Source: Acholoe squamosa (Eukaryota > Annelida > Polychaeta > Phyllodocida > Polynoidae). From it: a DNA stretch of 64,000 nucleotides. Both the position numbers and the translations under genes were made by a program. Numbering within the stretch: position 1 is the stretch's first letter; each line of letters opens with the position of its first letter. Shown here in pieces: positions 1 through 53,756 of the stretch. Under the pieces are notes generated by a model. That model worked only from the letters and a program-made list of their open reading frames with translations, ran no database searches and had not been told where the DNA came from. The stretch spans positions 39,303,432 to 39,367,431 of the forward strand of contig OX439052.1 in NCBI GenBank assembly GCA_949317995.1, in the 5' to 3' direction.

Positions 1-276
1 AGTCCAACCCAGCCATGCCCCTGTAGGAGTGGCAAAGTAACATGGTTGCCACTAGCACCATCTGTTGTATCAAAGCTGATGAAAGAGTCGTATAAGACAC
101 ACTTAGACTTTTGGCTGATTTATATTGTATATGCAAGGATCAGCCTCAGGGGGCCTCAGATATAAGGTGTATCTTATGCGCGAGAGATTACATAGACAAT
201 TGGATCATGGAAAATTTCAATTTTTGTCATCAAGTCAAGGAAATGGGATGGAATTTCTGAGTATTTTGTGGCTTTT
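1..276. other. Intronic or intergenic sequence, no gene seen
   Basis: No exon, RNA gene or recognisable repeat is seen here. It probably belongs to the intron upstream of the first visible TBRG1-like exon at 1531. Confidence 0.4.
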
Positions 277-1496
277 ACATGGGTGGGCATATACAGGGGG
301 ATTTATTACATGGGTGGGCTTATACAGGGGGATTTATTACACAGGTGGGCTTATACAGGGGGATTTATTACACGGGTGGGCTTATATAGGGGGATTTATT
401 ACACAGGTGGGCATATACAGGGGGATTTATTACACAGGTGGGCTGATACAGGGGGATTTATTACACAGGTGGGCTTATACAGGGGGATTTATTACACGGG
501 TGGGCATATACAGGGGGATTTATTACATGGGTGGGCATATACAGGGGGATTTATTACATGGGTGGGCATATACAAGGGGATTTATTACATGGGTGGGCAT
601 ATACAGGGGGATTTATTACATGGGTGGGCATATACAGGGGGATTTATTACATGGGTGGGCATATACAGGGGGATTTATTACAGGGGTGGGCTGATACAGG
701 GGATTTATTACAGGGGTGGGCTTATACAGGGGGATTTATTACACAGGTGGGCATATACAGGGGGATTTATTACACGGGTGGATTTATACAGGGGGATTTA
801 TTACAGGGGTGGGCTTATATAGGGGGATCTATTACACGGGTGGGCTTATACAGGGGGATTTATTACACAGGTGGGCTTATACAGGGGATTTATTACATGG
901 GTGGGCTTATACAGGGGGATTTATTACACAGGTGGGCTTATACAGGGGGATTTATTACACAGGTGGGCTTATACAGGGGATTTATTACAGGGGTGGGCTT
1001 ATACAGGGGGATTTATTACACGGGTGGGCTTATACAGGGGGATTTATTACAGGGGTGGGCTTATACAGGGGGATTTATTACATGGGTGGGCTTATACAGG
1101 GGGATTTATTACAGGGGTGGGCTTATACAGGGGGATTTATTACAGGGGTGGGCTTATACAGGGGGATTTATTACATTGGTGGGCTTATACAGGGGGATTT
1201 ATTACACAGGGGGATTTATTACATGGGTGGGCTTATACAGGGGGATTTATTACATGGGTGGGCTTATACATGTGGATTTATTACACGGGTGGGCTTATAC
1301 AGGGGGATTTATTACATGGGTGGGGTTATACAGGGGATTTATTACAGGGGTGGGCATATACAGGGGGATTTATTACACTGGTGGGCATATACAGGGGGAT
1401 TTATTACACTGGTGGGCATATACAGGGGGATTTATTACACGGGTGGGCTTATACAGGGGGATTTATTACACAGGTGGGCATATACAGGGGGATTTA
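277..1496 (+). repeat. 31-bp minisatellite, about 39 copies
   Basis: A 31-bp unit made of TATACAGGGGGATTTATTAC followed by a variable triplet and GGTGGGCT repeats head to tail. A few units lose one G or are partly duplicated. Units differ mainly at the triplet after TTACA (CGG, CAG, TGG, GGG) and at CTTATA versus CATATA. The unit has no stop codon in any forward frame and its length is not a multiple of three, so all three frames stay open and read the same 31-residue super-repeat out of register. The array ends about 35 bp before the splice acceptor of the FYRN exon at 1531. The long frames are best read as a by-product of the repeat, not as a protein. Confidence 0.95.
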
Positions 1497-1530
1497 CGGT
1501 ATGACCAAGGTTGACATGCATATATTACAG

Positions 1531-4377
1531 ATCACCAATGACCGGTCACGGTACCACAGTGCAGAACACATCTACCCGGTCGGCTTCTGCAGTACCCGCG
1601 AATACTGCAGTCTACGGAACCCGGACACCAAGACACTGTACACATGTAAAATACTCGACTGTGGACTCGGACCTAAGGTAGGCCTTTGCATTAGCACTAT
1701 GATGAGGTACCGGGATCCTTAACAGGGGGCACCATTGCTTGATCTGGTAGTTGGAGAGATAAGCACTGATAACAGCCAGCATGATGGGTACCAGTGGTTA
1801 TGTAACGCAACCTAAAAAGGTTTGCACTGAATTCTGAATGAAGGGAATTATCTCATTGGTCAATAATGTATCCCGCTAAGTCGCTATACCGGTAATTGCC
1901 ACTATTGGTCTGATACATCCTACTCATTGGTTAACATTATAAACTAATGTACAAATTTGATTTATTTTGTCTCTCAGGGGCTCAAAGGCAACAGTCTTGC
2001 TAACTGCTCTAACTACTTCTATGAAGACTAAATTTATTAGACCATTGTTGATTTTTATCCCTGTATTATATCACAAGGCTCTAGGAACCTTTAGTAAGTA
2101 ATGTCAAATAAGCTAACTAAATGGCGATTGGATTAGAAACTACAAACATTTGTTACTCAAAAGCATGGCAGTAAAACAATGAGTTGAAAAAAAAACCACA
2201 CGCAATGATGCAAAAATAATGTCTTATCTATCTATAAAAAAATGTAACAGTACCAATGATTCTCTGATTCACCTTACTAAACCTGAGAAATGTTAGATCT
2301 ACTCAGAAAATATTTCCAAAATTCGAGTATCATTGTAACTTTTCCTTAAAAAACCCTTAACCTTTGCATCCTCTTTATTACTTGCAGTTTGAGATCTCTC
2401 CAGAGGACGCACCTGAACATGTTATATCATGTGATTCCGCTGATGAATGTCACACCCGGCTTTTAGCCTACGTTAACAACGCAAGGTAATTACTCAACCA
2501 TCTTGTATTCCAAGTATGGCAAAGGATGTGCATATGGCGCAGACCACAACGCCTTGATAAACTCCCAAAAGTTGAGTTGGATCATACTCGGAGCCAGCTG
2601 GGATTGGCCAAAATCCTTCACTGGTACCGTGGGACTACTTTCACCATTCCCCCAGCACTATGGCATAGGTAGAAAAATCTTGTCATGGGCGTGGAAAGCA
2701 GGGGGGACAGGGGGACATGCCCCCCCCCCCCACTTTTGGCCAACTCCTCAAAAGGTCAAAACTAAAAGGTCAAGCAAAGGGAGGTCAAAAATTGCAGAAA
2801 ACCCCCCTGGTCCCACCCACTCTGAAACTGCTTCCCACGCCCCTGCTTGTCAGATATTGGTCACTCAATACCCACAATTCCACGGTACCAGTGAAGGATT
2901 TAGGTCAATCCAAGCTGGCTACCAGTATGCAGTCTGATATATACCAATACAAATGCTAACCCTTATGAAATGATTGAGAAGAAGGTCCACAAGGTCCGAA
3001 ACCAACAGAAATTTCACTCACAAGCTGTGATCCAACCTCATTTCCTCGTCGAAAAAAACATGCCTTGCTTAGCAACATATATATTCTATTTTGTGTATGT
3101 AAAACGATGCTATTCCACATTGGAGATCTGCTCAACTCTAACAGCTACCGCGTTCTGAAGCTCTTCTTCAGTGAGAGCTTCTTTTATAGTGGACCCCCTC
3201 TTTGTCATAGCGACGTGATGTCACAGGGTAGCATGGGTACCTGTTGCATAGAGAGGCCCTGTCTGTCAACAAAATTGTTTAGTTGGCATAGTAAGGCCAG
3301 TAAATCTCATGGTGGTGAGATTTAAATGAAGGAAGCGGTTTCATCATGCGAATCCTCAGGCTGTATTTGGGTTTTGATCAAAATAAAATCAAAGTTGAAT
3401 TTATTTGATGAAAAACAAGCGGTGTTCTTGGATTTGATCCCAGAATCTTACAAAATAAAAATCTTACAAAATAAAGATCAAAATATAGTGCAAAAAAAAA
3501 AATATATATATATATTCTATTTTGAAAGGATTATGAAAATACTACTATTGATTTATTACAGAGGCATTGAGGTGGTGACACCAGAGCCACGCGGTGCAGA
3601 GTTCTTTGGTTTCTCCCACCCGACAGTACAGAACCTAATACAGTGTTGTCCCGGAGCACGTAAATGTTCCGGCTACAAGTGGGTCCGCTTTGAGGTGTGC
3701 CGAACGGACCCTACCGAGGCCATGGCGTTCTTTAACGATGATCCTGTCATCAACTTTGACGCACTGCTACAGTCACAGAAATATCAACAAGGTCAGTTTC
3801 AAAGAAGAGTGAATTAAAGTTTTTTGATTTTTAGCCCAGACTAAGCATGATGTATTAAGAGGATGTCGAGAGAGAATATTGTTTAGATTGATACTTTGGC
3901 TGATACTTTCTGTATATGTTTTAGAATAGTCGAAAAGTGTGATATGTTTGATACATTCCGTGCCACACCGAAAGGTCCATCAAGTGCAGATTTTTCCAGA
4001 ATTATTTTTTATTTAGATCATTTAGATAACAAAACTTTTAAAGGTTTTCCAATAGCGAATGAATAAATCTAAAAACAGGGAATTGGTTGGTTGAATTGTA
4101 TTCTTGTGTTATAGGCAGGGCAACATAAGGTTTTGATCTCTGCACTGGAATACTAATAAATGCTACTTATGATTCACTGTACATGGCAATTGTTATCAAT
4201 TGATTAAATGAAAGATTCCTGTTACAGAAATAACAATATGGTTGACATAGAATTTAATTTTGTCTTGCAGCAATGGAAGAATACAAACAGATGCAGCAAA
4301 CGACCGCCATGGAAACGACAAGTTCCCTCCGGTCGCTACTGACGAGTGGACCGCTCTTACAAGGACCTCAATCATAG
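1531..4377 (+). CDS. TBRG1: TBRG1/NIAM-like FYRN-FYRC protein, C-terminal exons
   Basis: Four exons join in phase: 1531-1677, 2388-2485, 3562-3791 and 4271-4377 (stop TAG at 4375), giving 193 codons; the 5' exons lie outside the window. Exon 1 carries the FYRN motif IYPVGFCSTREYCSLRNPD. Exons 2 and 3 carry the FYRC part, with FEISPEDAPEH, FFGFSHPTVQNLIQ, CPGARKC and YKWVRFEVCR. The order and these motifs match animal TBRG1 (transforming growth factor beta regulator 1, also NIAM), a nuclear growth-inhibitory protein that acts with ARF and p53 in mammals. FYR domains are also found in MLL/KMT2 proteins, but the motif GARKC..Y.WV and the short C-terminal tail fit TBRG1 better. All junctions are AG/GT, for example tgtcttgcag before 4271. 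The function in this species is inferred from the family. Confidence 0.88.
1725..1810 (+). repeat. Dispersed repeat (pair with 16266-16345)
   Basis: The stretch CCATTGCTTGATCTGGTA...GAGATAAGCACTGA recurs with few changes at 16266-16345 in a CARD-TRIM intron. Two intronic copies show a dispersed element of unknown class; no ends could be defined. Confidence 0.55.
2686..2845. mobile_element. Short inverted-repeat element with G/C runs
   Basis: The left end GGGCGTGGAAAGCAGGGG and the right end CTTCCCACGCCCCTGC are imperfect inverted repeats, with a long C run and the phrase CCCCTGGTCCC between them. The same architecture recurs at 9022-9378. It looks like a MITE inside TBRG1 intron 2. Confidence 0.5.
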
Positions 4378-4599
4378 TTCACACTCATATTAACTCTTTA
4401 AGGCCCACATCATCACCTTAGTGCAAAAAGGTTGTAACTGCATTTTTCAAGTCATGCATAAGTGTTCCAATGACTATACCACCAAGTTGATTGAACAATA
4501 TTGCACTGGGGCCTGCCTGTAGGCACACATATCAGAGACAGAGCCTCAACTTTTTCACAGTCAGGAGATAATAATTGTCAATAGATGGTAGAACAGATG

Positions 4600-4870
4600 A
4601 GTGCTCACTTTGTCCAAAATGTCAGTTACAACCTTCTTGCACTAAGGCGACGATATGATGCCTCCAGGCTCATCCTCCTTTGTCCTCATGATGCATCAAT
4701 GCAGTGCTGGCGAGTAACTCACCTCCACTGCATTGGCTCTGTATCTCGATTCATGTCGACCCTTTGTGGGTGTATCAAGCAAGTAGGGTCATGATGCTCG
4801 TATACAGCACCGGCGAGTTACTCACCAGGCTGCATTCATGCATCATGATGAAGGGCATGATGCATTTGTG
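4600..4870. repeat. GATGCATCA hairpin-family repeat
   Basis: The TBRG1 3' UTR region holds broken copies of the palindromic family best seen at 12441. Examples are CATGATGCATCAATGCAGTGC followed by GGCGAGTAACTCACC, and a second mirrored piece ending CATCATGA near 4850. Confidence 0.55.
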
Positions 4871-5224
4871 CATTATTATAACCACCCCTTAAAAGGTTAC
4901 CATTACGCAGACTATCTTTCTCCCTTTTGTGGAAGACCTCTTCACATTGAATTATTAAAGTTCCTACTGAAATTTGTCTACAATAGCAGGCTTAGTATAT
5001 ATGACAATCGTAACGATATAAAAGAATGGAGAGAGAATGACATCAGAACTGTGTGGTTGACATTGTAAACGGAAATAACCAAACTCTAATAAATAACGGA
5101 ACATTGATTGTAAAATGTGTCCTCATGTTTGTATGAGAGTAATATATGCAGGGCCTACACTTATGACATCAATCATTTAATTCTACATTTCACATACATG
5201 TATAACTCTTCAAACAGAGTTGTC

Positions 5225-29322: not shown

Positions 29323-32300
29323 TAAACAAAGTTCCAATATGTTTTGTCGCTATGTGAAACCTGGCTGAAGCCTGCCTCACCTGATAGCCTGATTAATAGA
29401 GAGGATAGGTTACTGTATAGGAATGATAGCATTGGTAAAAATTGTGGAGGAGTTGGCCTAAGTGTGAAGGCTGGCCTAGGGCAGTATATTAGAGCTGTAA
29501 ATGACTTTACCAGACAGACCATCGATTATGAAAGTATTGCCATTAAGTTAAACCTTCCTGATGAAAAGGATTTATTGATTGTCTCTATCTATAGAATCCC
29601 AAATACGAATGTACCAAATTTTATTAATTTCTTACGATCCATCGCTGGTTACGAATATAACAACAATCATGGTAGGCATGAGACTTGGATCTTAGGTGAT
29701 ATTAATCTCAATATGTATGATGAAAATGATGCAGGGTGTGAAAGTTTCAGAAATGTGTGCAAGGATATTGGATGGAAAATACTAATTAATGAGGTGACGA
29801 GACCATTTAGTGGTACTTGTATTGATAACATAATTACAAATAGCTTAGATGTAACTAATGCAAGTACGGTCTCTGCCCTAATTTCTGATCACCTCCCAGT
29901 TTTTGGTTGTAGAGGACATGAGAATATCAGTTATGTTAGCACTAAGTATAATGGAAGAGATTATAGAAACTTTAATGAAGACAGATTTAGAGATTTTTTA
30001 GAATCATGTGACTGGAAACCCTATTATAATATTACTGATGATCCTGATATATTATGGGATATGTTATTGACTCCGTTAATTGAGTATTTGGACACTTTTC
30101 ACCCTCATGTTGAACGATACATTAAAAAAAGTAGGAGATCATGGATTGATGATGAAGTTATGGATTTAGTATTTGAAAGAGAAGGATGGTTACGTCTCTA
30201 TAGTGCCAATAAAAATGTTCAGGAAAAGCAAGCCATGAAGGATTGTCGAAGAAAAATTAGAAAGAAAATTAAAGCAAATCAAATTGGTGGTGTCATGCAA
30301 GAGTTGCAAGTAAGTTATGGTAATCCCAAAAAATTCTGGAAACACATAAATAACTTGTTTAAAAATTCAAATTCTATTGTGTATCCAGACAGGAGACATC
30401 ATATAACCCAAGTGCTGATGTAACTTCTGATGATGTTTGTGAATATGTAAATGACTATTTTTGTAATATTGGTAAGGATCTGCATATTGCTGCTGTTGGA
30501 ACTGATCAATATCTTGTGGATAATAATCTAGATATAGATGAACTATTGGCAAATGAAAACTTCCTAGATCAGAATATTAAGGTTAATAAGTGGGATGTCC
30601 ATTTTGCTCTAAAAGAAATTGACAAAAATACGTCATCAGGCATAGACGGAGTAAGAGGAGATATACTACATTGTGCATTATTGTTGTTGATAAATCAATT
30701 CACTCATCTGATACAAATTAGTTTGGACAGGGGTATTTTTCCAAAACGTTGGGCAATGGCAGTTGTAAGACCATTACCTAAGGATGGGGATTTAGCAATG
30801 GTAAAAAATTGGCGACCCATATCAATACTACCAATGCCCTCTAAAGTCATTGAGAAAATTATGTATTATTACTTATGTGAAAGTATGAAGAAAAATGGTA
30901 CTTTTTGTGAAAACCAATATGGTTACAAAAAAGGGACAGGTACTGGTGATGCCACTTTTGACTTTGTTAATGAGCTTTATGAATGTAGAAACAATGGTCT
31001 GATAACAGGGGCTCTATTTATAGACTTCACTAAAGCATTTGACAGTGTATTACATTCAAAATTGCTAATTAAACTCAGTAAACTTGGTTTGAGTAAATCT
31101 AATTTTCTATGGTTTAAAAGTTACCTGGAAAATAGAAAACAACGATCTAGCTATGGTGATAAATTGTTCTCAAACCAAGATATTGATTATGGTGTCCCTC
31201 AAGGATCAGTTTTAGGTCCCCTGTTGTTTGTCCTATATATTGATGATGTTGTTAAGGTCTTAAAAAGATGCAAGATTAAACTGTATGCTGATGACATTGT
31301 GATTTATAGTTATAACAAAGATGTAGACATGGTTAATGAGAATTTGAATGAAGATGTAATTAACTTTAAGCGTTGGGTTATCGAAAACAGACTAACAGTA
31401 AATCCAACTAAATCAAAATTTATGTGGTTTTGTAGTGCTCATAAATTAAAAAGATGTCCAGATTCTACTATAGACTTCAATGGCAGCACTGTGCAAACTG
31501 TCACCTTCTTTCCGTATCTAGGTGTACATATTGACAGTAAACTTAGTTTTGATAAACAGATTAAAATTATTAAAAGAAATGTATGCAATAAACTATTTAG
31601 GTTTGCTAAGTTAAGAAAGTTTTTAACACAAGAGCAAAGTGTAAAGATATACTGTTGTACAATCAGACCAATTATAGAATATTGTTCATTCATAAGTACT
31701 AGTTGTAATGAGGATGGCATTACAACGACTGCAAAATAGAGCTCTTAGAGTTTGTCTGAAATGCAATATTAGACGGTATAGTGTGAAGGAGTTGCATGAA
31801 ATTTGTAAGGTTCCAGTGTTAGAGAAAAGATTTGACATGCTATTATTATGCTTAATGTATAAGAAATCAAAGACTGTGTTAAATAGACCACAATCTTATA
31901 ATACAAGGTCTCAAAAGAAGATTGTTTTTGAACTACCTAGGGTTATTACTAGACACTATAAAAGATCGCCATGGTACAGAGGGGTGGCTCTCTGGAATAC
32001 TCTAAATGAGGAGATTCAGAAAGCTACGACAAAGGTAAAATTCAAAGAGGGTGTGATGAAGATAGAAAATATAAGGTTGAACCTGAAATTGGGTTATAAT
32101 TGATAATGAGAAGCAGGTGTGGAAACTGCGCCGCTTCATATTCATATTCATACTCACATTCATATCCTTTTTCATGTTTACATCCATATTGATATTGCTG
32201 TTGTTCCCATATGCATATAACAGCATATACTACCAACTCTAATTATCACTTATTTGAACTAAAGACAAGGTGTATTTAGCTGTAATCATGATGTACTGAA

Positions 32301-34944: not shown

Positions 34945-35747
34945 TTATTTAAGCGCAGCTGCAATGGCCATCTGAGCTTTGGTGTACTGGGGTCTGTGTG
35001 TGCATGCTTTGTAAGCCCCTGATGTCCACCCTCCATGCTCCATAACCTGCTGGTCTGTACACCCTGCTCGTGATGCCTCTATGGCCGCGGCCTTTCTCAG
35101 TGAATGTAGACTGAATGGCATGGTGGGAATGTTGAGTGCTTTCCGTACCGCCTGTATGGCAGCGGGATTGGGACCCTTGTATCCAGGAACATGCACGTTG
35201 GGTTCTGGACCTCTTCCTGTACCTTGAGGAGTGCTGTGAGGGGGCAGTATAAATAGTCGGCTGCACTGGGTGTATTGTTTCTTCCCTCATTTGGTCATAC
35301 TCCTGCAGGGTTTTCCCCACTTTGATCCCCACCATTCTGAACTGCGGGTAAGCCTTACATCCCCTCTTGTGAGGTGGTATGTATAATTGAATGTGATGGC
35401 TAACAGGGGGAGAAGTCTCTGTCTGAGACTGTCTGAGAGCTCCGTAGTAGAGTAGAAATACCACCGCCCTGAGCACCCGACCCTCGGGGTCCTGTTTGAA
35501 CTGTGCTAGGACCGCGCTGAGTGCCTGCATCGGTATCAGGAGCTTGGGCTTTGGTACATATGTCTTGTCTATGGATAGCCGTCATTTCTCGGTACGACGG
35601 GCTGTTTCGTTGAATTTGCATGGAGTAGGTGAAGGAGAGGTAGGACCTCATAGTTGATTGGCAGATTTTGGATGTTCCCACTGCTCTGGCCTGTGCTTGG
35701 CAGGATGCTCCACATCACTGTTTTTTTTTTTTTTGAAATGATTAAAC

Positions 35748-35753
35748 TTTATT
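35748..35753 (-). promoter_or_regulatory. LINE poly(A) signal
   Basis: AATAAA on the minus strand, 14 bp before the A tail at 35721-35734. Confidence 0.7.
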
Positions 35754-36102
35754 AGCCATAACAAAATATGACATTTGACATGAATCCATTGTTTGAAGCT
35801 CAAAATACAATCTTTCATTGAGCATACCGGTATAATAACATTGGCTAATTAGTTCATGGAGGGACCATCAGTAGGACTGTTGTTGTGGTCCGACCATATA
35901 AAGATGTGGGGTCTGGCATGTAACATACATGGAGGTGACAATTACATTTGAAAGATGGAGTCAGTACTTATACACTTTAAGTAATACATATCCCACGGCC
36001 CTTTACAAAAAAAAATGTAAAATTTGTATTATAAACCCAGTAATAAAACCCCGTATACATTCATAATAGCGTACATATACATGCATCAGACGACCTTTTG
36101 AG

Positions 36103-38946
36103 CTATTTTACTGTGTCTAACATTTCTTGTTTCATTTTCTCTTTAAATTCATCATAATTTATCATGTTACGTACATTAGGTGTTAGGGCGTTCCATGCCT
36201 GTCCACATTGAACTTCTGGACTCTTCTCATAAGAGAGTAAATTAATCTTGACATATTTTAAAATTGGTGCAGTAGAAAATCTTGTGATTCTAACCTTGTC
36301 TGTTAAAAAATTCACATTCTGTGCTCTTTTGAAGGCATGACATTTAACATGGAACTTTCTTCTATGTTCTAACATTGGAGTAGTAGTTTGTCTATGCACC
36401 ATGTCAGTAGCAGCTAATATATGAAAATTTAAACATGTCTTTAAGCACTTGTTTTGCATACGTTGCAACTCATCTAAAAGGCTTCCTTTAGCTCCATCGT
36501 ACAAGATATCACAATAATCAATTACAGGGAGAATATGTGCTTTATACATTTTTAACCTTGCTTGAGTAGTCATACATTTCCTGGTTTTATACAACAATAG
36601 AGATTTGTACCTAATACTCTTTATAATATTTGAAACATACATATTAAAATTTAACTGCTGATCAAGCGTCACTCCTAAATATTTGTATGAGATAACAGAC
36701 ATCAGTTCTTTACCATTTAATGAAATTTTCGGCTTTGGCAACTTTTTAAGTTTATTTGCGGATGCAAATAACATAACCTTGGTTTTTGACTCGTTCATGG
36801 TTAATTTATTGGAAGATGACCAGACATAGAATTTATTTAAAGCCACAGTTAATTGGTTCGTCAAGAGATCAATGGATTTCCCCGAAACAAACAAGACTGA
36901 GTCATCAGCAAAAAGCAAAGTTTCATGTCTATCATCAATACTAATGCAGTCATTGATATATAAGAGAAAAAATAACGGACCCAAAATCGAACCCTGGGGT
37001 ACGCCACAGGTTAAACCTGCATTAATAGAACGTGCATGGTTGGCCAATGAGCACTGCTGTCGCCTGGATAAGTAATTTTCTATTAGGGAAAGATTTCTGT
37101 TTCGAATTCCATAATTTTCCAATTTATTATGTAATATTATATAATTGACTGAATTGAATGCCTTCTTTATATCGATAAATGCTGCCAAAGTAATATTGCC
37201 TGAATTTCTATTTTTCAAAATATTATTAACAAAGGTCGAGATTGTATCGAGAGTGGATTTTTTTTCTGATACCCGCCTTGATTCTTTGATAATAAGTCAT
37301 ACTTTTCAATATGTTTAGAGATAGCAGTGTGAATTAACCTTTCCAGTATTTTGCCTGGTACAGGCAAAACACTAATTGGTCTATAATTGGAAACATTAGT
37401 AGGATCTCCCCCCTTTGGCAAGGGAGTGACCATAGCAATTTTCCAGGAATCTGGCACAATACACTTAGAAACACATAAATTTATAATTTTTATAAATTTC
37501 GCAGGCATATGAAGCATTGCTGCTTTAAAAATATGAGTTGGTAAATACTCTATAGCAGAAGATTTGGAGGTGTCTAAGTCCTTAATACAAGTAATAATCT
37601 CTTCATCAGAGAAGTCAAATTGAGGCATGTCGATAGTGCAGCGTTTTCCTCTAAAAGTAAAATCTTTGGTGTGAGCTTCTGCCAGCCTGGGTCCAATATT
37701 GGCAAAAAAATTATTTATAAACTCAGCAGTGTTTTCCATAGCTACACTATTTCCATTAGAATCAACTAGATTAATTGTTTTTGCTGCTCCCTTACTACCC
37801 GGTACTACTTCCTTCATCGTTGACCAAAATCGTTTAGAATCACTTGCATACATATTTATAAGATTACAATAATAATCATCTCTGGCTCTATCCAGTTCTT
37901 GGTTTACAGAATTACGTAGGATTCGAGCTCTGTGCCATACAATAATACTATTTGCCCTTCTGGCTTCCAACAACAAGGAATTTTTGTCATTAATTCGTTC
38001 TATTAAATAATTTGTCATCCAAGGCTTAGGCTTATCTAACACTTTAAACTGTTTGACTGGGCATTGTACATCAAGCAACCTCTTTAAAATATTTTCTAAG
38101 GTTACCCAACATTCCGTGGGATCCTCACAATTGTCAAAATAATTCCAATTTAAATTCTGTAAGTCAGCCAAGTATGTGGCCATGTTAAAATTTTTATAAG
38201 ATCTGCCCATAAAAGTCCTATAGTTTTTTTTTCACATGAACCTGTCGTTTAGTAAAATGAATAGGAAGATGATCGCTGAGATGGATATTAACCGGGCCAG
38301 AGGAAATAACTGTATCACAATTTGTAAAAATTAAATCAATACATGTATCCGTGCCAGAAGTAGTTGTAACCTTATTTACCAATTGAACTAGATTAAATTG
38401 ATCCATAGTCTCGTATAATAATCTCTTATCTGGAGAGTTTACCAGTGCATTAACATTAAAGTCACCAATCAGGAATAAATCATACTGATCTATGGTATCC
38501 AGTTGTAATAAGAGAGCCTTAAATACATTACAAAATTCTAACAATGATCCATTAGGTGGTCGATACACATTACATAATAAGGTTTTTTTTGTATGACCCT
38601 TTATAGAGACTAGCCACTGCACTTCTATGTCCTCAGTACATCTGTTTAAATGTTTATATGCATCTACAGAACACGACACCTGCTCATCTACATGTGCACA
38701 CAATCCTCCTCCCCTAAAAATAGACATTCTATCAGATCGAAATAAATTGTACCTAGGAAAGCTATATAAGGCACTACAATCAGAATCATTCAACCATGTT
38801 TCTGAAAAAAGTATAACATCAATATTATTATCAGACAATTCTTCAGTTATACTAGTAAACTTATTACGCACACTCCTAGCATTTAAGTGAACAGTTGTGA
38901 AACCCTTCTTAAATAATTTACGATTCACACTAATAAGTGGAAACAT
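36103..38946 (-). pseudogene. LINE ORF2: APE endonuclease and reverse transcriptase
   Basis: The endonuclease frame (38946-38218) shows VHLNARSVRNKF, LFSETWLND, LIGDFNVNA and LSDHLPIHF. The RT follows in two frames, 38210-37215 (WKIAMVTPLPKGGDP, YRPISVLPVPGK) and 37218-36103 (AFIDIKKAFNSV, GVPQGSILGPLFFLLYIND, LFADDSVLF). The two frame changes fall in a 9-base A run (38224-38232) and an 8-base A run (37258-37265), and the protein motifs resume without loss on each side. Apart from these it looks complete. The protein would nick target DNA and copy the element's RNA at the break. Homopolymer errors in the sequence are a good alternative to true mutation. Confidence 0.88.
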
Positions 38947-39270
38947 ATGTACCGGTACGTCCCATTAAGCCCCTTGTCTACTCTGATATACACGTAAGAG
39001 AAGAAATACAATAACATAAATTGAAAAAAACATGTCAAACCCCCCTGATAGATTATCACACGGCTCTTGTGGCCTGATAAGCTATATTCAAACATTGATT
39101 GGCAGGTAAATGTCAGAGCCCCGAAATCAATTTTTAGACATAAATAGAGAGAATTTCCACAAAACCATACTTAAAAGTTATGACCTGTTTAGTCATGAAT
39201 CATGTATAGCATGGAAAGTCTTATTATGGGAATTATTTCCTCAGAATACTAGTTCATAGATTTAGTGACA

Positions 39271-40755
39271 CTAGGTGGCAGCATCTTGTTGGGGAACTAT
39301 TTCATTCTCCTCCGCCTGAGCTTCAGTTTCAATATTTTCTGGTGGATCAAAGTTTGGATTTTCTTCTTTTTTCTCATCATCCTTTTTGCCATCATCTATT
39401 GCTTGCTCGTCATCTTCATTGTCATCGTCAGATTCCTCATATTGTAGCAGTTCATCTCTGACTCTCATGAGGGTGTATCCATGGAGATTCTGCCCTTTTA
39501 AGTTACCTTTAGTACAGTCTGTGTATTGGCCAAGGTGTAGACATGCACCCCAAATAGGGTGATAACTGGCTTCATACATTTCCTTCCCATCAAAGGACTT
39601 GAGGTAGGTTCTCATTGGCTTGGTGGCGAATTTAGCCTTGACGACTCGGTGCATTTCTGCTTCTGCTCTCTTTGGCCACTCTGGCTTCTGTTTGATCTTC
39701 TTACCCTCAGACATTATGGCGAATGGATCATGCAGTTTCATAATACGTTCCAGTGCTGGTGCATCTTTACAATGTAGGGCCTTTTTAGCCTGAAAGGCTT
39801 GTTCAGCACAACAATACTCGGTGTCCTCCAGGGTAAAGGGGGACATGTATAGATTTGACAGTCTGTTATATGGCGACCTGTACATAACTCCATCCGGGGT
39901 TGTGGCGGTGGTAGCTTTTTCCATTGTCAGATCATCGTAGGGTAATGCATTCAACATGTTATATCCATAGGTTTTGCCCTCTAGAATCAGAGAACGTTGT
40001 CGTAATTGAACTCTATACCCGGCAGCTTTGGCATGAAAGTACATACAGCGTAAATCATTGAACCGTTTATATTCACCTTCATTCAGCTCATCGCCAATAG
40101 AAACTTTCTTGTAGTCAAGTTTACCTTTTAGATTTTTGAGCTTTTTCATCATTTTTGCCTTGGTATCTGTACGTTTAAAGATCAACCTGACCGGTCTGTT
40201 TACGTTTGCCTGGGCGCCGCCATCTTGGATTGGGGTTTCGTCGCGCGTTACACTTTCGATACTACTTATGTCAAACTCAGCCTTAATATCCCGAAATAAT
40301 TTGCCCATTTTTTCGAGTAAGTTTTCTCCATCATGGTGCTTGAGCCCTTGTATCATAACAATTTTTTTCCTTTCCATTTCCTCTGATTTTTCGAATTTAT
40401 TGGAGTGTTCCGTCAAAATTCTAGTCTGTGCCGCCAGGACCGTTGTATGGCCTTTCATGGCCTCTTCGGTTGCCGTCAACGTTGACAGCATACCCTCCAT
40501 GGTTCCTTCCGTCTTGGTAAGTCTATTCTGGATACTTCCTAACGTCGTATTAGTGGTAGTATTGGTTTGGTTTAAATTTCCAATTGATGTTGACAAGGTG
40601 TCAAGCGTTGTTTTCATACTGTCACATTTCGTCTCATTCTCTGACAGCCTCTTTCCAAGGCTATTGACAGCTACGATGATGTCTAAAAGTGAAGCGTCAT
40701 TCCTGAGTAAATCATCTTTTCCTCTGCTCTTTGAGCTGCCTTTTCCGTGAAACAT
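39271..40755 (-). CDS. LINE ORF1 protein with coiled coil, L1-type RNA-binding region and NADAR/YbiA-like domain
   Basis: The intact 494-aa frame starts at ATG 40755. Residues 20-130 are a polar coiled-coil-like stretch rich in Thr/Asn/Leu. Residues about 128-270 resemble the L1 ORF1 RRM and C-terminal region (ERKKIVMIQGLK, NRPVRLIFKRTDTK, YKKVSIGDELN). Residues about 293-440 match the NADAR (YbiA/DUF1768) fold over its length: SPYNRLSNLYMSPF, then YCCAEQAFQAKKAL, then WPKRAEAEMHRVVKAKF, then IWGACLHLG and LHGYTLMRVRDELL. The family's Glu in the (S/A)E..FQA motif and the WG motif are present. Residues 441-494 form an acidic tail. NADAR proteins are N-glycosidases or ADP-ribose-processing enzymes, and some reverse guanine ADP-ribosylation. 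A role in countering host ADP-ribosylation of nucleic acid, or only in RNA binding, is inference. Confidence 0.87.
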   Translation of the reverse strand: MFHGKGSSKSRGKDDLLRNDASLLDIIVAVNSLGKRLSENETKCDSMKTTLDTLSTSIGNLNQTNTTTNTTLGSIQNRLTKTEGTMEGMLSTLTATEEAMKGHTTVLAAQTRILTEHSNKFEKSEEMERKKIVMIQGLKHHDGENLLEKMGKLFRDIKAEFDISSIESVTRDETPIQDGGAQANVNRPVRLIFKRTDTKAKMMKKLKNLKGKLDYKKVSIGDELNEGEYKRFNDLRCMYFHAKAAGYRVQLRQRSLILEGKTYGYNMLNALPYDDLTMEKATTATTPDGVMYRSPYNRLSNLYMSPFTLEDTEYCCAEQAFQAKKALHCKDAPALERIMKLHDPFAIMSEGKKIKQKPEWPKRAEAEMHRVVKAKFATKPMRTYLKSFDGKEMYEASYHPIWGACLHLGQYTDCTKGNLKGQNLHGYTLMRVRDELLQYEESDDDNEDDEQAIDDGKKDDEKKEENPNFDPPENIETEAQAEENEIVPQQDAAT

Positions 40756-41240
40756 GATGAAATCGATGTAGTAGATGTTTACAAGTATTTCTGCCAGAAA
40801 TTTAACCGTCCTAGTAAGGGTTGAACATTAAAAATGCCCTAATTCTCGGGAGCTCGCGACGACCGATGCTCAACCTCTTGACGCCATTTTTTAGCCAATC
40901 TGTAGCCAATCTACCACTGGATCTGTAATAATAAAGCACTACGGGGTTCGATGCTTTTGAGAAAGTAGTTATATGGAGCAATTACAGAATCTTTATCATT
41001 GATTATCTGCCGATTGGCCCCTTCGAGATATTTGTTATCTAGATGTGCTCTACAGAGGTTAATGGCAAGAACATTATGTACACCCGGGATGTGATAAAAT
41101 TCTATCATTACATTGTACATGGGTTGAATCATCCAGACCTCTACCCCTCGCACCATCAAGTAATACCAGGTCATGACCCCTGCAGGTATTAAGTATCGGG
41201 ACAGCTGCGTCATTATCACAGAACACGCGGATGTGGCCAT

Positions 41241-47281: not shown

Positions 47282-49417
47282 TTAAGCGGATTTCTTAGCA
47301 TGCTTCTTCTTAAGAAGAGCTAGAGCCGACTCGGGAGTGCCGTCCCACTCGTCCAAGTCGACTCCGAATACCCTCATGAACTTAGTGTTCAGGTTGGTAT
47401 TCCGGGTAATTTCCTCCTTTACACGTTTCTCCAGCACGTGCACGTCCATAGCTGCCTTTTCTTGGGCAGCTGCGGCAGCCTCCTCCTGGGACTTTACATC
47501 GCCCCGAATGAGGGTTTCGAGGCGCTGCTTTTCAGCATCCGCGACCTCCTTCATACACAACAGGGTGTCGTTTAGGAGTCCCTGATGAAATTCTGTGGCC
47601 TTCTCATGGACACACTTCTCCCATTGGGTGTAGATGGCCTTCTGGACATCTGCCTCCCCTTGGCGAGATTTCTCAAACCAAATTTCCGCATTACCGGCCT
47701 TAATGGTAATGACGTCTTTTGGTTTCGCAGGTGCAGCGACAGCCTTGGGAGGAGTCGATACAGCCTGTGAACCACTTCCGGGTTTGGGGCTTCCGGACAC
47801 GCCTGCTGATGGTACACAGTAGGCAGGGGGCGCGTTCTGCTTCAATCCCATTTGCAGGTACTGCTCCTGGGTGAAGGTAACTGGCAAGGCGGCTGGAGCG
47901 GATGGGGATCTGGCGGCAGCAGGTGCTGTGGTCTTCTTTGGAACAAGTCGACCATCCTTTCCTACCACCAAGGTCTGGCTCTCAGGTCCAGGTCCCTGGG
48001 ATAAGGATGGAAAGTTACGAGGATTAACTTTCCCAGGTTTAGATACGGCTCCAGCGTATCCGGCAGGTTCGGGCTTCTTGAACACCGGAGTGCCCTGAGC
48101 CTGCTCTGCGGGGTGCCTAGCCAGAGGGGACCTGGAACGGTCCTCTGCTCTGACTTTCGATTTAGCACTGGTGCTCTGACCATTACCGTTGCCGCCACGG
48201 TTTTGATCTCTCCTGCTCCTTTCACGAGCTCTCTTTGCATCCTTTCCGGATTCCTCGCATTTCTGCCAGAGAGACTCGTGCATGTCCAGTTTACCCTTTC
48301 CAGGAGTCAGGACTATCTTTGCTCGGAGTTTCGAATCCTTGGTCTTCGGAACTTCGCAGAGGACTTGGTCCCCCGGTCGAACCTTAGACCAAGCATCCTC
48401 GCTCAGGCTATCGAACTCCTTCATGAGTTCCTGGTGAAGCTCCATGATACGCTTCCGAGCCATCTCCAAACCTTCGGCGTGGCATTTCTTCTGGTGTCTC
48501 GCCAGATCACTACGTCGGCTGTATTGCACCTTAGTAGTACACTTCTTACCCTTCTTGCCATAACTCGGATCACAAATGTAAACCGGGTGATGGCGGAAGT
48601 GGGTCTCGACGAGATGTCTTTGGAACCGAGCTGGAGTGCTCCAGGTCCGGACCGAGACATCACTCGCATCCTGGCAGATAGAGAAGGGACAGGACTTCTG
48701 GTCGTCACCGTACCACTTCTCTAGAGCCCAACGTAGCTTCCTCCTCTGGGTATAGGTATAATACCCTTCGGTATGGTTAAGCATAAGCCACATCTTTCGA
48801 TAGGCCTTGCTCGGATTGGGGTCCTCGTCCGAAAGACGCATCCAATCTTCGTCATCTGACTCATCGTTCTTATTGATTGAGTCCAGGCAGGCATAGAGGG
48901 TAGAGCCGTTCTTCTTTACTCCGTAGGCACAATCGGAGAAGCACGTCGGAATCCGGGTTTTGAATCCGGATTTGGCGTTAGCCCAACGTTTGGCCTCGGT
49001 TTGAGTTGATGGAGTGGCCTTCTCATCATACTCAACCGAGGACTCGTGCACAGACTCCTCGTCAGATGATTCAACCTCCATGGCGGTACTACCAGTGGTT
49101 GAGGTGCTGGGTTTCGGCTCGGCTCTAGCAGAATCCGGGAGATTCTTGAGCTTCCGAGCAGCGGATCGTCGGTTCTTACTGACCTTCCAGTCTTCCTCCG
49201 GTTCCTGGGTTCCGGATGTGCTGGAGGTCGTGGCTTCTACTGGGGTAGTAGTACTGCCGGTAGCTTGTGTAGCACTGGCTGAGCTCCTGGTGGCAAGCTT
49301 CAGGTCGGGGATAGGAGGTGCGGGTACTTCCGCAGCTCTCTTAGCCTCTTCCTGGGCCTCCTGTTCGGCAGTCATACGGCGGACGATAACCGTCCGAAGG
49401 GCTGCAGCTCGGTCCAT
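47282..49417 (-). CDS. LTR-element accessory frame, 711 aa, zinc-finger-like, unknown family
   Basis: This long open frame is on the element's coding strand, downstream of the integrase. The N-terminal third is Ser/Thr/Ala-rich. The middle has Cys/His clusters (CPFSICQDAS, then HLVETHFRHH; CTTKVQYSRRSDLARHQKKC) that look like C2H2-type zinc fingers. It is followed by a basic Arg/Ser stretch, a Pro/Ala-rich linker and a C-terminal coiled coil. No signal peptide or membrane segment is seen, so it does not look like an envelope. It overlaps the neighbouring frame by 46 bp. Function unknown; DNA or RNA binding is a guess. Confidence 0.6.
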   Translation of the reverse strand: MDRAAALRTVIVRRMTAEQEAQEEAKRAAEVPAPPIPDLKLATRSSASATQATGSTTTPVEATTSSTSGTQEPEEDWKVSKNRRSAARKLKNLPDSARAEPKPSTSTTGSTAMEVESSDEESVHESSVEYDEKATPSTQTEAKRWANAKSGFKTRIPTCFSDCAYGVKKNGSTLYACLDSINKNDESDDEDWMRLSDEDPNPSKAYRKMWLMLNHTEGYYTYTQRRKLRWALEKWYGDDQKSCPFSICQDASDVSVRTWSTPARFQRHLVETHFRHHPVYICDPSYGKKGKKCTTKVQYSRRSDLARHQKKCHAEGLEMARKRIMELHQELMKEFDSLSEDAWSKVRPGDQVLCEVPKTKDSKLRAKIVLTPGKGKLDMHESLWQKCEESGKDAKRARERSRRDQNRGGNGNGQSTSAKSKVRAEDRSRSPLARHPAEQAQGTPVFKKPEPAGYAGAVSKPGKVNPRNFPSLSQGPGPESQTLVVGKDGRLVPKKTTAPAAARSPSAPAALPVTFTQEQYLQMGLKQNAPPAYCVPSAGVSGSPKPGSGSQAVSTPPKAVAAPAKPKDVITIKAGNAEIWFEKSRQGEADVQKAIYTQWEKCVHEKATEFHQGLLNDTLLCMKEVADAEKQRLETLIRGDVKSQEEAAAAAQEKAAMDVHVLEKRVKEEITRNTNLNTKFMRVFGVDLDEWDGTPESALALLKKKHAKKSA

Positions 49418-50223
49418 CCGATTAGTGAATTGTTCTGGACATCCACCAATTCCTGCTCGGTTATGTAGAAACCGTCATCCCACTGCTCGAAGTTAGCAGC
49501 GGCCTCTCTGAATTCCTTAGTGGTCCGGCATTGCTGCTGGGTAGCACTAGGGCGTGGGTAGGTCTGTCCATCGGTATCCCAGACACAGCCTACCCAGTTG
49601 ATGTTCGTAGCCTTGACGTTCCACAAGGTTTTGTCAGGCTTCGGATACGCTCCGAGCTCGAAGGCTCGGTTGGCTGCATACACGGTTTCGCGGAAACCAG
49701 CGTCTACCATAAGTCCCCGTTGGAACCACGGCCAGTCTCGAAGCCACTCGGGAGGCATCCTGGTTAGAGGTTCGGAAGACATGACGCCCTCAATAGCCAT
49801 CCTGACTTTCGGGTCCATCCTGACTGGTGTCCCGTCCGCGTAGGTCACTTGTGCCTGCAGTTCCGGGTGGACATACAGGTAGCGACCATCATAGTTGGCT
49901 GGAAAAGGTTCCGCCACTGCTGGCTTCCACTCGTCCTTCTGTCCGTCAACTTGGGTAGTCTCGGACTCAGTTGCTGCGGGTTCAGCGCTCGCAGCCCCTC
50001 CGGATCCCTCGGCCGGGAGTGGAGATAAAAGTTTCTCTGGCTCATTTAGTGAGAATGAAGCCAGCTTCTCCTCGAACGAGCGATCCGTGGGTTCCTCCAC
50101 GTCCATCATCTCGCTCTCTTCCTGTGTTACAGGTGACAAAGCTTCCGGAAAAGCTTCTGCGGACGGAGTCAGCTTATCCGGGTCACCGGATAGCTTGGCT
50201 GCAGCTACGGATTCCTCAGCCAT
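49372..50223 (-). CDS. LTR-element accessory frame, 283 aa, unknown family
   Basis: It starts at ATG 50223 (minus). It has an acidic N-terminal half and a more ordered C-terminal half with many Trp and Tyr residues (PPEWLRDWPWFQRGL, NINWVGCVWDTDGQ). It is not recognised. It overlaps the start of the 711-aa frame in another frame, an arrangement that could use reinitiation or frameshifting. Base composition is more GC-rich than the gag-integrase part. Confidence 0.55.
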   Translation of the reverse strand: MAEESVAAAKLSGDPDKLTPSAEAFPEALSPVTQEESEMMDVEEPTDRSFEEKLASFSLNEPEKLLSPLPAEGSGGAASAEPAATESETTQVDGQKDEWKPAVAEPFPANYDGRYLYVHPELQAQVTYADGTPVRMDPKVRMAIEGVMSSEPLTRMPPEWLRDWPWFQRGLMVDAGFRETVYAANRAFELGAYPKPDKTLWNVKATNINWVGCVWDTDGQTYPRPSATQQQCRTTKEFREAAANFEQWDDGFYITEQELVDVQNNSLIGWTELQPFGRLSSAV

Positions 50224-50399
50224 GACCGGGGAATCACCTACGGGAGTAGAATACTCCTTTTTTTTCGGCTTTTACGGCGCCGGGGCCGACACTGACGGAG
50301 TCTGCCTACTGGGAGACAGACTCTGAGGGCACACAAGGGGTTTGCTAGATGGTAGAATTCAAGAGAGAAGGGGTGACCCGACTGTCCCAAACGCTACCA

Positions 50400-50550
50400 A
50401 AAAACAATATGGCGACAGGCCAGCTTTCGTGACGTCATTTCCCCGCATCCCGCGAGGTCACGAGAGGTCAGCCGAGACTGGACACGGTGACGTCATGCGG
50501 AAACACACGTGCTACAGGCGGAACATAAACAAACTGATTGTTTTTAGGTA
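50400..50550 (-). promoter_or_regulatory. Possible internal promoter of the LTR element's accessory frames
   Basis: Two CRE-like TGACGTCA words (near 50432 and 50490) and an AATATGGCG word lie in a GC-rich stretch 180-330 bp upstream of the ATG at 50223. Promoter function is inference. Confidence 0.3.
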
Positions 50551-50974
50551 ATTATCGCTCATGCCGATGACTCGTCTGGGGATTTAAGTGGAGATTATGG
50601 AAAGCTTAAGCAAATCCACCGGATTATCCGTCCACTACCCATTGGTACATCATGCGGCGGCGACAAATAAGCCTTTCGGGTCAGTTGTCATCCGTTCCTC
50701 TAAATGTAAACATTACACTCGTTGTGTATACAGGTTAGGTCACTGCAGTCCTCTGGGCAATTCGGGGGCTGCGGCGAACGTATCTCCCCTTCTCGGATAG
50801 TTCTTTATCAGACCTGACAGTCTGAAGAGCTTTTTCTAGGTGTTTCTTAGCCTTGGAGACACCTTTCCTCTTCTTCTTGTCTTCACCTGCCGAGACTTTT
50901 TTAACTCCCCCACGCTTAATCGGTGTTGGCGCGGGTGTCACTGATTCGGAACACTTTTTAGGCCTACCACGGCC

Positions 50975-53731
50975 TCACTTCACTGTAGTGTTCTTTACCT
51001 GGTCTATTATGCGATTCTGGTTCAGGATCTTTCCGGAACCTTCACCATACATTTCTGTGGAGGTCTCCCTCCCAGACCATTTCCTCAGTCTGGCCACATT
51101 TGACTTATACAGTCGACCAAGGTCAGATTTAATTATTACGGTACAGTCACTGATAACTTGGGTTACCGTGAAGGGACCATCCCAATTAGACGCTAATTTT
51201 ATGTGCCTAAGTGGTTCATGTAGCCTGAGAACTCTATCTCCGGATTGGAATTTCCGATGCTTTAGATCGGTGTCATATCCAACTTTTTGCCATTTGGCAC
51301 TTTTCTCCAAATCGATCCGGACAGACTCATATGCTTTTTTAAATCTGTCTCTTAAATATTCCACAAAAACTACATGGCAAGGTAATTCCGGGTCCATCCC
51401 TACGACTCCAAATACTAAGTCGGCAGGCATTATCAAATCCTCTCCGAATACCAAAAGGTTTGGAGTACAATTTGTACTTGAATGTACCGTACTGTTATAA
51501 GCATGTGTCACAAAATGGCATTGCTCATCCCAGTCATCCATATGTTCATTTACAAGCGACTTTAGAACTTGGATAAGGGTTCTGTTGAACCTTTCTACCA
51601 ATCCGTCGCTTTGTGGCCTATACGGATTGGTTCTAGTCTTGCAAATAGCTAAGTATTCGCACATACCTTGCCAGAGATTTGATTCGAATTCTCTGCCTTA
51701 GTCACTATGTAACATTAGTGGTACGCCAAAACCGAGTACCCAACCTTTTACAAAGGCTTCGGCACAAGTAATTGCTTTGTGGTCCGGTAGTGGGAATACT
51801 TTAGTGTATTTTGTGTAATAATCACACACAACCATCATACAGGTGTTATCATTAGCGGTTTTGTTCAATCCACTGATGATGTCTACCCCGATTCTTGCGA
51901 ATCTAACTCCGAAAAGTTCTTGGGATAGGGGAAGTTTGCCCATCCCGGGTCCGGGTTTGTTTTTACAACAATCCGGACAGGTGATTACCCATCTTTGCAA
52001 GTCTCTGGTCATGCCAGGCCAGTAGTATCTTTTTGAAAGTCGTGCCAACGAGCGTTTCTTCCCAAAATGACCACTGGTCCGATGTCCATGACAAAAATAC
52101 ATAATGTCATGTCTCATGGCATGTGGTATTACCACTTGCATGATTTTCTCACCATTATTACAATTGGTGTTTCCAGAAGGCGCATACCTAGGGTAAGAAT
52201 TATTTTGATTCCATCCCTGGTTATAGTTATTACCATTTTGATAATTACCACTTCCTGATGGATTATAATTATATCTATATCCATAGGAAGATGCTCTCGG
52301 TTGATACATTCCGTCATTAAAGTTGTTTTGTGGCGGGTTCGGTCTTGGAAAACGTCCATCAGTAGGACCATTACCTGGACCTGAAGATGGGTTCGGTAAT
52401 CTCGGACCTGCTGGTGTACTATGGCCAGGTTGGGAGAAATATGAAGGTGGTGTCAACATATGTCTCATTGGACCCGGTACTCTTGGTTGTGCTACGGGTG
52501 TATTATTATTGGTTCCAGCAGCACTATCGCGAGTCGTTTTAATTTTGTGACTCAGGTCTGGTATTGGTGGTGCCGGACCTATTGTATCCAGCACTGGAGC
52601 TGCTGGTGTAGGTGCGGTTCCACTATCTGCGGCATTATCCGGTTTCTTATAGACTCCGGATACTACATTCTTAGTAGCCCCATCGTCAACGAAAGGGTTG
52701 TATCCAGTTGGAATTGTCTTTCCCAACATTTTAGACACCACAGCTGGATCTATATTACCTATAGTCAACTGGGCAGCTTCTACGTACTTATCTAAGGTTA
52801 TTGCAGTAGTCTGCATTTCCTGAAGCTCATTTGTGAGTTTCTGTCTATCTTCCTCCAGTTGTTTATTGTAAGCTATAATGCCTACTCGGATAGCTTCATT
52901 GTCTTCAGCTTGTTTAGTACACTGAAGTTTCAATTCCTCCAACTCGTTTTGATAATGGCATATTTCGGATTCGAATTTGGCCTTATCATGACTTAGTTGG
53001 TCGTTCGTATCTATGTATGTTTGGATACGGATGTGTCTATTGTCATACTCCTTATTAAATGACTCTCTCATTTCTTAGAGTTTTCGTTCCTCATCCTCGA
53101 GTTCTTTCATGTACTCGCTCCTTCTAGCTTCGAATTCTTTCTGCATGCCAGTTAGGTCTTCTTCTAGCTGAAGTTTTTCATGGAATACTTCATTTTTAGC
53201 TCTGACCAAGGTATTTAGATTCTCGTTCAGAGTTACGTAAGTTTCATTTAACAACGGGACGTCCGGTTGTTTAAATTCTTCACGTTCCGGTACCGCATAG
53301 GTTAAGTCGCCATCTATAGCGCTATAATCTAATATGGGTAATCCGGGTCTGGGTAATCTATAAGGTAGCTCTCCGAATGTTACCCTTTTTGGCATTGGCG
53401 CCGGATGTTCTGGGTTGGTACTACCACCAACTTCGAACATCGAATTAGTTAGCTCGTCAACAAGTGATTGTTGGCTCATTAACTTATCCTGTCTCTGTAT
53501 AGACTGTTCACGTCGTACAGAGTCTGGTAGATTCTCCTCACTATCATTATAGTGGGGTCCGGGATCTCTCCAGGATGTAGATTCCGCATCTTGGGAGTTC
53601 GAATGGTTCTGGAGCACTAATGATCCATTGCCATTCTCCTGGGCAATCAGTTGCCCTACTGGGTTAGCTTCCCTAAGGTTATCTAACCCATGTAGCAGCC
53701 GTTCAGACGTTATGACGTCCGGGCTATACAC
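50975..53731 (-). other. Gag-like coiled coil and integrase region of the LTR element (fossil)
   Basis: The upstream part (from 53731) is charged and coiled-coil-like, followed by a Pro/Asn/Gly-rich spacer. Then come an integrase zinc finger (HGHRTSGHFGKKRS, CPDCCKN), the catalytic core (IGVDIISGLNK; NPYRPQSDGLVERFNRTL) and a C-terminal part with FQSGDRVLRL and NWDGPFTV. These are the standard features of Gypsy-type integrase. The region is broken. Confidence 0.8.
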
Positions 53732-53756
53732 CAGGATTAACTGGTCACGGCATCAG

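Follow-up and report, generated by a model that had tools for sequence, protein, structure and literature searches.

NADAR domains on the RNA-binding ORF1 proteins of LINEs in the Acholoe squamosa genome

What would a retrotransposon gain from ending its RNA-binding protein in a NADAR domain, a fold whose members strip ADP-ribose off guanine in DNA (PMC11543638) and in RNA (PMC11833690)? The question is raised by a LINE copy in the 64,000 nucleotides of DNA analysed here in full (the window). The parts of this copy, with the evidence for each, are as follows.

35721..40890, minus strand: LINE copy, probable 5′ end (copy similarity) through to the last base of the A-tail
39271..40755, minus strand: ORF1, 494 aa, stop codon included in the coordinates (translation)
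40375..40755, minus strand: probable coiled coil, ORF1 residues 1-127 (weak matches to coiled-coil families)
39901..40374, minus strand: L1-type RNA recognition motif (RRM) and C-terminal domain (CTD), ORF1 residues 128-285, with limits that are our reading of alignments (LINE-1 ORF1p profile match)
39448..39876, minus strand: NADAR domain, ORF1 residues 294-436 (PF08719, E 4.2e-21)
39274..39444, minus strand: acidic C-terminal tail, ORF1 residues 438-494, weakly constrained (dN/dS 0.70)
38221..38964, minus strand: ORF2 piece 1, endonuclease (PF14529, E 2.8e-10)
37218..38231, minus strand: ORF2 piece 2, in another frame, linker and start of the reverse transcriptase (PF00078 below its cut-off, E 0.0048; tblastn match to the second LINE in the window)
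36106..37296, minus strand: ORF2 piece 3, in another frame, reverse transcriptase (PF00078, E 4.4e-22)
35721..35753, minus strand: AATAAA and 14-base A-tail (sequence)

The 5′ end is placed at about 40890 because similarity to two other copies begins there (at 40890 for L015/L027 and at 40888 for L002). At the other end the run of 14 A residues occupies 35734-35721; a search for a target-site duplication around this LINE found none. The initial annotation had described an intact ORF1 of 494 residues without giving its strand. The frame is indeed intact and belongs to the minus strand, where it is uninterrupted; the plus strand has many stops over the same interval. ORF2 is broken into three frames, and the frame changes adjoin A runs. 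Contamination was rejected as a source, the window lying within a 53.9-Mb contig of the 1.48-Gb assembly (63 contigs), and a scan of viral and genome contig collections confirmed no relative.

Other repeats share the window. A second LINE, of a similar broad reverse transcriptase type and with broken frames, lies at 29326-32050 on the plus strand, with no ORF1 match upstream. At 119-1722 (plus strand) all three reading frames are long and overlapping and repeat a GGLIQGDLLHGWAYTGGFIT-like motif; this stretch is probably a minisatellite. Frames at 47282-53752 (minus strand) resemble an LTR retrotransposon; they include an integrase zinc-binding domain at 51698-53074 (PF17921, E 1.3e-19) and a weak integrase core at 50978-51697. 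A frame resembling 49375-50271 of this region was also seen, by eye, upstream of the LINE copy L085.

The identity of the ORF1 domains rests on profiles. PF08719 matches ORF1 with 76.3 bits (cut-off 35.1) over positions 8-162 of its 163, which bears out the complete NADAR domain proposed in the initial annotation. It is the sole Pfam family above cut-off on this protein, and ORF1 is the only frame with a NADAR match among the 1561 stop-to-stop frames of at least 25 aa in the window. A profile that combines the window ORF1 with five relatives from databases matches the solved NADAR 8bau (E 3.5e-23), E. coli YbiA (2b3w, E 6.4e-15) and LINE-1 ORF1p (2ykp, E 0.0035). When only the region before NADAR is used, as a profile of eight ORF1s from this genome, LINE-1 ORF1p is matched at E 3.4e-07. 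We therefore call the protein L1-type (Type II), with the single RRM followed by a CTD that is a feature of this type; the L1-type RNA-binding region put forward earlier thus stands. The N-terminal part gives weak matches to coiled-coil families, both in Pfam and with the profile of eight ORF1s. Pfam Transposase_22 does not match the window ORF1, and as a single sequence searched against PDB at E ≤ 1 the protein matches neither NADAR, YbiA nor LINE-1 ORF1p.

A protein search with the whole ORF1, in which the best 8000 candidates were scored, returned four proteins at 48, 42, 42 and 27% identity, and all four carry NADAR. Searching 5.8 billion proteins with just the NADAR piece (21 candidates) brought up a single one, P0006, and a profile search added no further proteins.

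A broken ORF2 is what one would expect if a dead copy had gained the domain in a single fusion or recombination event, or if this copy alone had captured a piece of host gene. The other copies refute a chance or one-off fusion. At least 87 ORF1 matches were scored in the genome, the window included, among 4395 candidates, and NADAR is present in all 30 of the ORF1 loci that were read, some of them broken. Of these loci, L015 and L027 belong to a single copy, and L016 lies beside the near-identical L018. Another contig holds a copy 98.9% identical to the window LINE over 3135 bases. In L034 both ORFs are open (484 and 943 aa), and a protein 100% identical to its ORF2 product is encoded at a second place in the genome, so the L034 family has probably moved recently.

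Relatives were also picked by ORF2 only (at least 48 scored matches of 28001 candidates), and 13 of the 20 that were read, out of the 48 scored, have NADAR on the right strand within 1 kb upstream; the domain is thus not confined to the window copy. The other seven have no NADAR within that distance, and from the 1 kb viewed they look 5′ truncated, though some may be intact relatives that lack the domain. Within 1001 bases upstream of L072, similarity to its near twin L071 is confined to the final 336. By eye, L074 and L088 are preceded by frames resembling the final part of a different reverse transcriptase, other frames lie upstream of L081, L073 and L085, and a frame upstream of L078 resembles an acidic ORF1 tail. 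Capture from the host by this copy alone is opposed by the position of the stand-alone NADAR genes of this genome, L035 (C17; E 2.6e-51) and L036 (C14; E 7.6e-47), which group with a Bacillus plasmid NADAR (100/98) and lie far from the window NADAR in the tree. Taken as a whole, an origin private to the window copy is extremely improbable. Of the outcomes that the initial annotation named as refuting it, neither a missing profile match nor a domain confined to this copy at a recombination junction was observed.

The domain is also under purifying selection. We computed dN/dS from Nei-Gojobori counts on five chosen, nearly independent pairs of the 190 possible among 20 ORF1s; the values are drawn from other intact copies, and the window copy is too distant from them for a dS of its own. 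The N-terminal part has a ratio of 0.190, the RRM 0.100, the CTD 0.069, NADAR 0.116 and the acidic tail 0.704. The comparison of NADAR with the RRM, suggested when the locus was first annotated, gives no difference (p 0.58), nor do those with the CTD (p 0.13) and the N-terminal part (p 0.17), and NADAR is lower than the tail (p 3.2e-11). With a dS of 2.3, the pair L016-L017 comes close to saturation. The result holds when all pairs are sorted into three dS bins, where median dN/dS is 0.06-0.09 for NADAR and 0.60-0.72 for the tail.

Does the conserved domain retain an active site? Residues were mapped through the alignment with 8bau, using the residue numbers of PMC11543638, which lists the ADP-ribose contacts and catalytic residues of NADAR; by our count the chain index of 8bau is two higher. 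The window equivalents are Glu318 for E43, Lys325 for K50, Trp360 for W89, Glu395 for E125 and Trp402 for W133, so that the catalytic E43, K50 and E125 all have their counterparts. Several ADP-ribose contacts are altered: K75 is replaced by Met348, R79 by Lys352 and R93 by Ala364, and a counterpart of D130 is absent. An Asp homologous to D130 is included in a set of SNA-3 mutations modelled on four YbiA residues critical for N-glycosidase activity, according to the part of PMC9303266 available to us.

These changes recur across the family. Among 20 ORF1s of the window family that are intact or almost so, K75 is always Met and R93 always Ala, E43 and K50 are retained in 20/20 and E125 in 19/20, the exception being the full-length copy L009 with Lys in its place. 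A wider alignment of 31 NADARs (22 from LINE-type proteins and 9 cellular or phage) has E43, W89 and E125 in every sequence; K50 is found in 28 and is replaced by Arg in L042, L044 and P0006. Within the 22 LINE sequences only 8 of 150 columns are invariant, and Glu318, Trp360 and Glu395 are among them. Since such contacts vary in other NADARs too, their changes would seem to bear more on substrate than on membership of the family.

Three readings of the domain can be weighed against these residues. It may be a fold without catalysis, serving as an extra RNA-binding surface or holding the ORF1p particle together; its place on an RNA-binding protein, the changed substrate contacts of the window family and the loss of the E125 equivalent in full-length L009 all fit. 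A pure scaffold need not retain both catalytic glutamates, and the equivalents of E43, W89 and E125 stay invariant in LINE NADARs that are otherwise very divergent, so that we consider this reading unlikely. Or it may be an active N-glycosidase whose targets are small molecules in free form (ADP-ribose derivatives, signals or RNA-repair products) and not the bases of the LINE. Riboflavin intermediates are the substrates of YbiA, and viral NADARs have been proposed to target small ADP-ribose derivatives (PMC9503650, PMC11543638, as far as their available portions go); altered contacts would suit an altered substrate. A small-molecule enzyme is nevertheless about as unlikely as a bare fold, since several LINE types keep the domain attached to a protein that binds RNA; that placement suggests a target that is nucleic acid or bound to the particle.

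The third reading, an active hydrolase acting on the nucleic acid of the element itself, is the likeliest of those considered, and we hold it tentatively. That the NADAR of the window family is an active ADP-ribosylhydrolase is probable from its sequence, and activity is favoured because both catalytic glutamates are invariant in the 22 LINE NADARs; our confidence in the full reading is not higher mainly because the substrate contacts have changed. L1 ORF1p binds the RNA that encodes it and remains part of the ribonucleoprotein. The ORF1p of the window family would be an L1-type RNA-binding protein bearing a C-terminal NADAR, and since an L1-type ORF1p coats its own RNA and remains there, it would carry the domain onto the RNA and the single-stranded cDNA of the element. 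There NADAR would most likely remove ADP-ribose from bases, guanine being its known substrate in both DNA and RNA, so that the template stays readable or a modification made by the host is undone. The opponent would presumably be a host ADP-ribosyltransferase. Protection of RNA or cDNA from ADP-ribosylation, as put forward in the initial annotation, is favoured by the catalytic glutamates that persist, but the altered contacts mean that the target may be a different one.

How far the arrangement extends depends on the elements that carry it. The window ORF2 encodes an apurinic-type endonuclease and a reverse transcriptase (PF14529 and PF00078), and the latter appears Jockey-superfamily-like. 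It contains GVPQGSILGP, a motif that we take to fit the Jockey superfamily; the type was judged from this motif and from alignment, and is kept at the superfamily level. Assignment to Tx1/L1 was rejected, as ORF2 is not close to L1 ORF2p over endonuclease and reverse transcriptase: the window reverse transcriptase piece has no match to L1 ORF2p at E ≤ 1, and the related open ORF2 of L034 matches it in the reverse transcriptase part only (E 6.4e-12, with R2 at 6.3e-11). The ORF2 of L044, in the same genome, matches L1 ORF2p at E 1.8e-104 over residues 6-887.

PF08719 has at least 150 scored matches (of 3224 candidates) in the genome, 150/150 of them above cut-off, and our survey of lineages read some of these. 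L044 combines an L1-type ORF1 bearing NADAR with its L1/Tx1-like ORF2. A NADAR ORF1 accompanies a Jockey-superfamily-like ORF2 in L034, L047, L058 and L059, and the NADAR ORF1s L040, L046 and L038 have Jockey-superfamily-like ORF2s in L054, L055 and L056. The NADAR unit thus adjoins an RNA-binding unit in both L1/Tx1-type and Jockey-like LINEs. A third arrangement is seen in L045, where a 757-aa ORF1 (2824-5094, minus strand) carries NADAR and a C-terminal stretch that is SGNH-like in look, next to another type of reverse transcriptase; no RRM was seen in this ORF1. A separate ORF that is SGNH esterase-like by eye stands between the NADAR ORF1 and ORF2 in L038, L040, L042 and L046, and Pfam gave no family for the two of these SGNH-like ORFs that were scanned. 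In the set of other lineages Pfam found NADAR in all eight ORF1s scanned.

NADAR seems mostly to have descended together with ORF2, because the identities of the two parts are correlated and the same groups occur in both trees. Across 11 elements NADAR and reverse transcriptase identity give a Spearman coefficient of 0.47, reached by 2 of 5000 permutations, and the groups window-L033-L034, L058-L059 and L038-L040-L046 recur. All three are starred in the NADAR tree; in the reverse transcriptase tree one is starred (98/100) and two are unstarred (91/99 and 90/93). Deeper in the NADAR tree, the Tx1-type L044 and P0006 adjoin cellular NADARs (95/92) and E. coli YbiA falls, on a long branch, among LINE NADARs; the AU test does not reject a single clade for the 22 LINE NADARs (p 0.127), which may thus stem from one capture or from several.

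The base modification that NADAR enzymes reverse has a scarcely understood role in animals. Strong selection on a NADAR borne by the ORF1 proteins of many LINE copies suggests that retrotransposition is influenced by this modification, or by a related ADP-ribose signal. A broader proposal strikes us as doubtful, if possible: that the host defends itself by ADP-ribosylating the RNA or cDNA of retroelements, and that several LINE lineages of this animal for this reason encode nucleic-acid ADP-ribosylhydrolases of their own. If true, NADAR would be a widespread counter-defence of transposons, and animals would control transposons in part through base ADP-ribosylation, so far unrecognised in this role. 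Guanine ADP-ribosylation of DNA has been found in butterflies and six edible clams (PMC11209040, in the portion available), which for the host of the window LINE is only a parallel. The open element L034 makes the role of the LINE NADAR testable.

Several known systems resemble parts of this arrangement. E. coli YbiA (2b3w) and the P. nicotianae NADAR (8bau) share with the window NADAR the whole domain and the catalytic Glu, Lys and Glu, but are stand-alone enzymes, and several of their substrate contacts are unlike those of the window. Nematode SNA-3, as described in the accessible part of PMC9303266, is likewise an animal protein with NADAR, in an RNA-processing complex; it differs as the product of a host gene with three NADAR domains. 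PMC4120745, in its accessible portion, describes Type II (L1-type) ORF1 in CR1 and L2 LINEs, together with ORF1 shuffling. There coiled coil, RRM and CTD precede a Jockey-superfamily ORF2, an order that the window LINE probably shares, whereas NADAR has no occurrence in the main text of that paper.

Among the open-access full-text matches listed, PMC12477816 is the one paper on NADAR in retrotransposons; NADAR and YbiA have no occurrences in PMC10294476 and PMC11203168, on mollusc LINEs. From the part of PMC12477816 available, an Ectocarpus Gypsy is also a retrotransposon with NADAR, but it is an LTR element with the domain on Pol rather than on an RNA-binding ORF1. The same source proposes that retrotransposon NADARs have a role in processing of the RNA intermediate. 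One sentence in it reports that several Tx1 LINE families of Crassostrea gigas have a NADAR-like domain in ORF1, so the initial annotation, which knew of no described LINE of such a layout, is not quite accurate on this point, and the placing of NADAR on the ORF1 of a LINE has a precedent. The oyster elements and the window LINE both have NADAR on the ORF1 protein; the former are Tx1 (L1 superfamily) by Repbase name, whereas the window ORF2 is not L1-like; an L1/Tx1-like element with a NADAR ORF1 is present in this genome as L044. As far as open-access searches go, what is new is a NADAR-bearing LINE with a Jockey-superfamily-like ORF2, the occurrence of the domain in several types of LINE within a single genome, and the evidence from selection and the active site.
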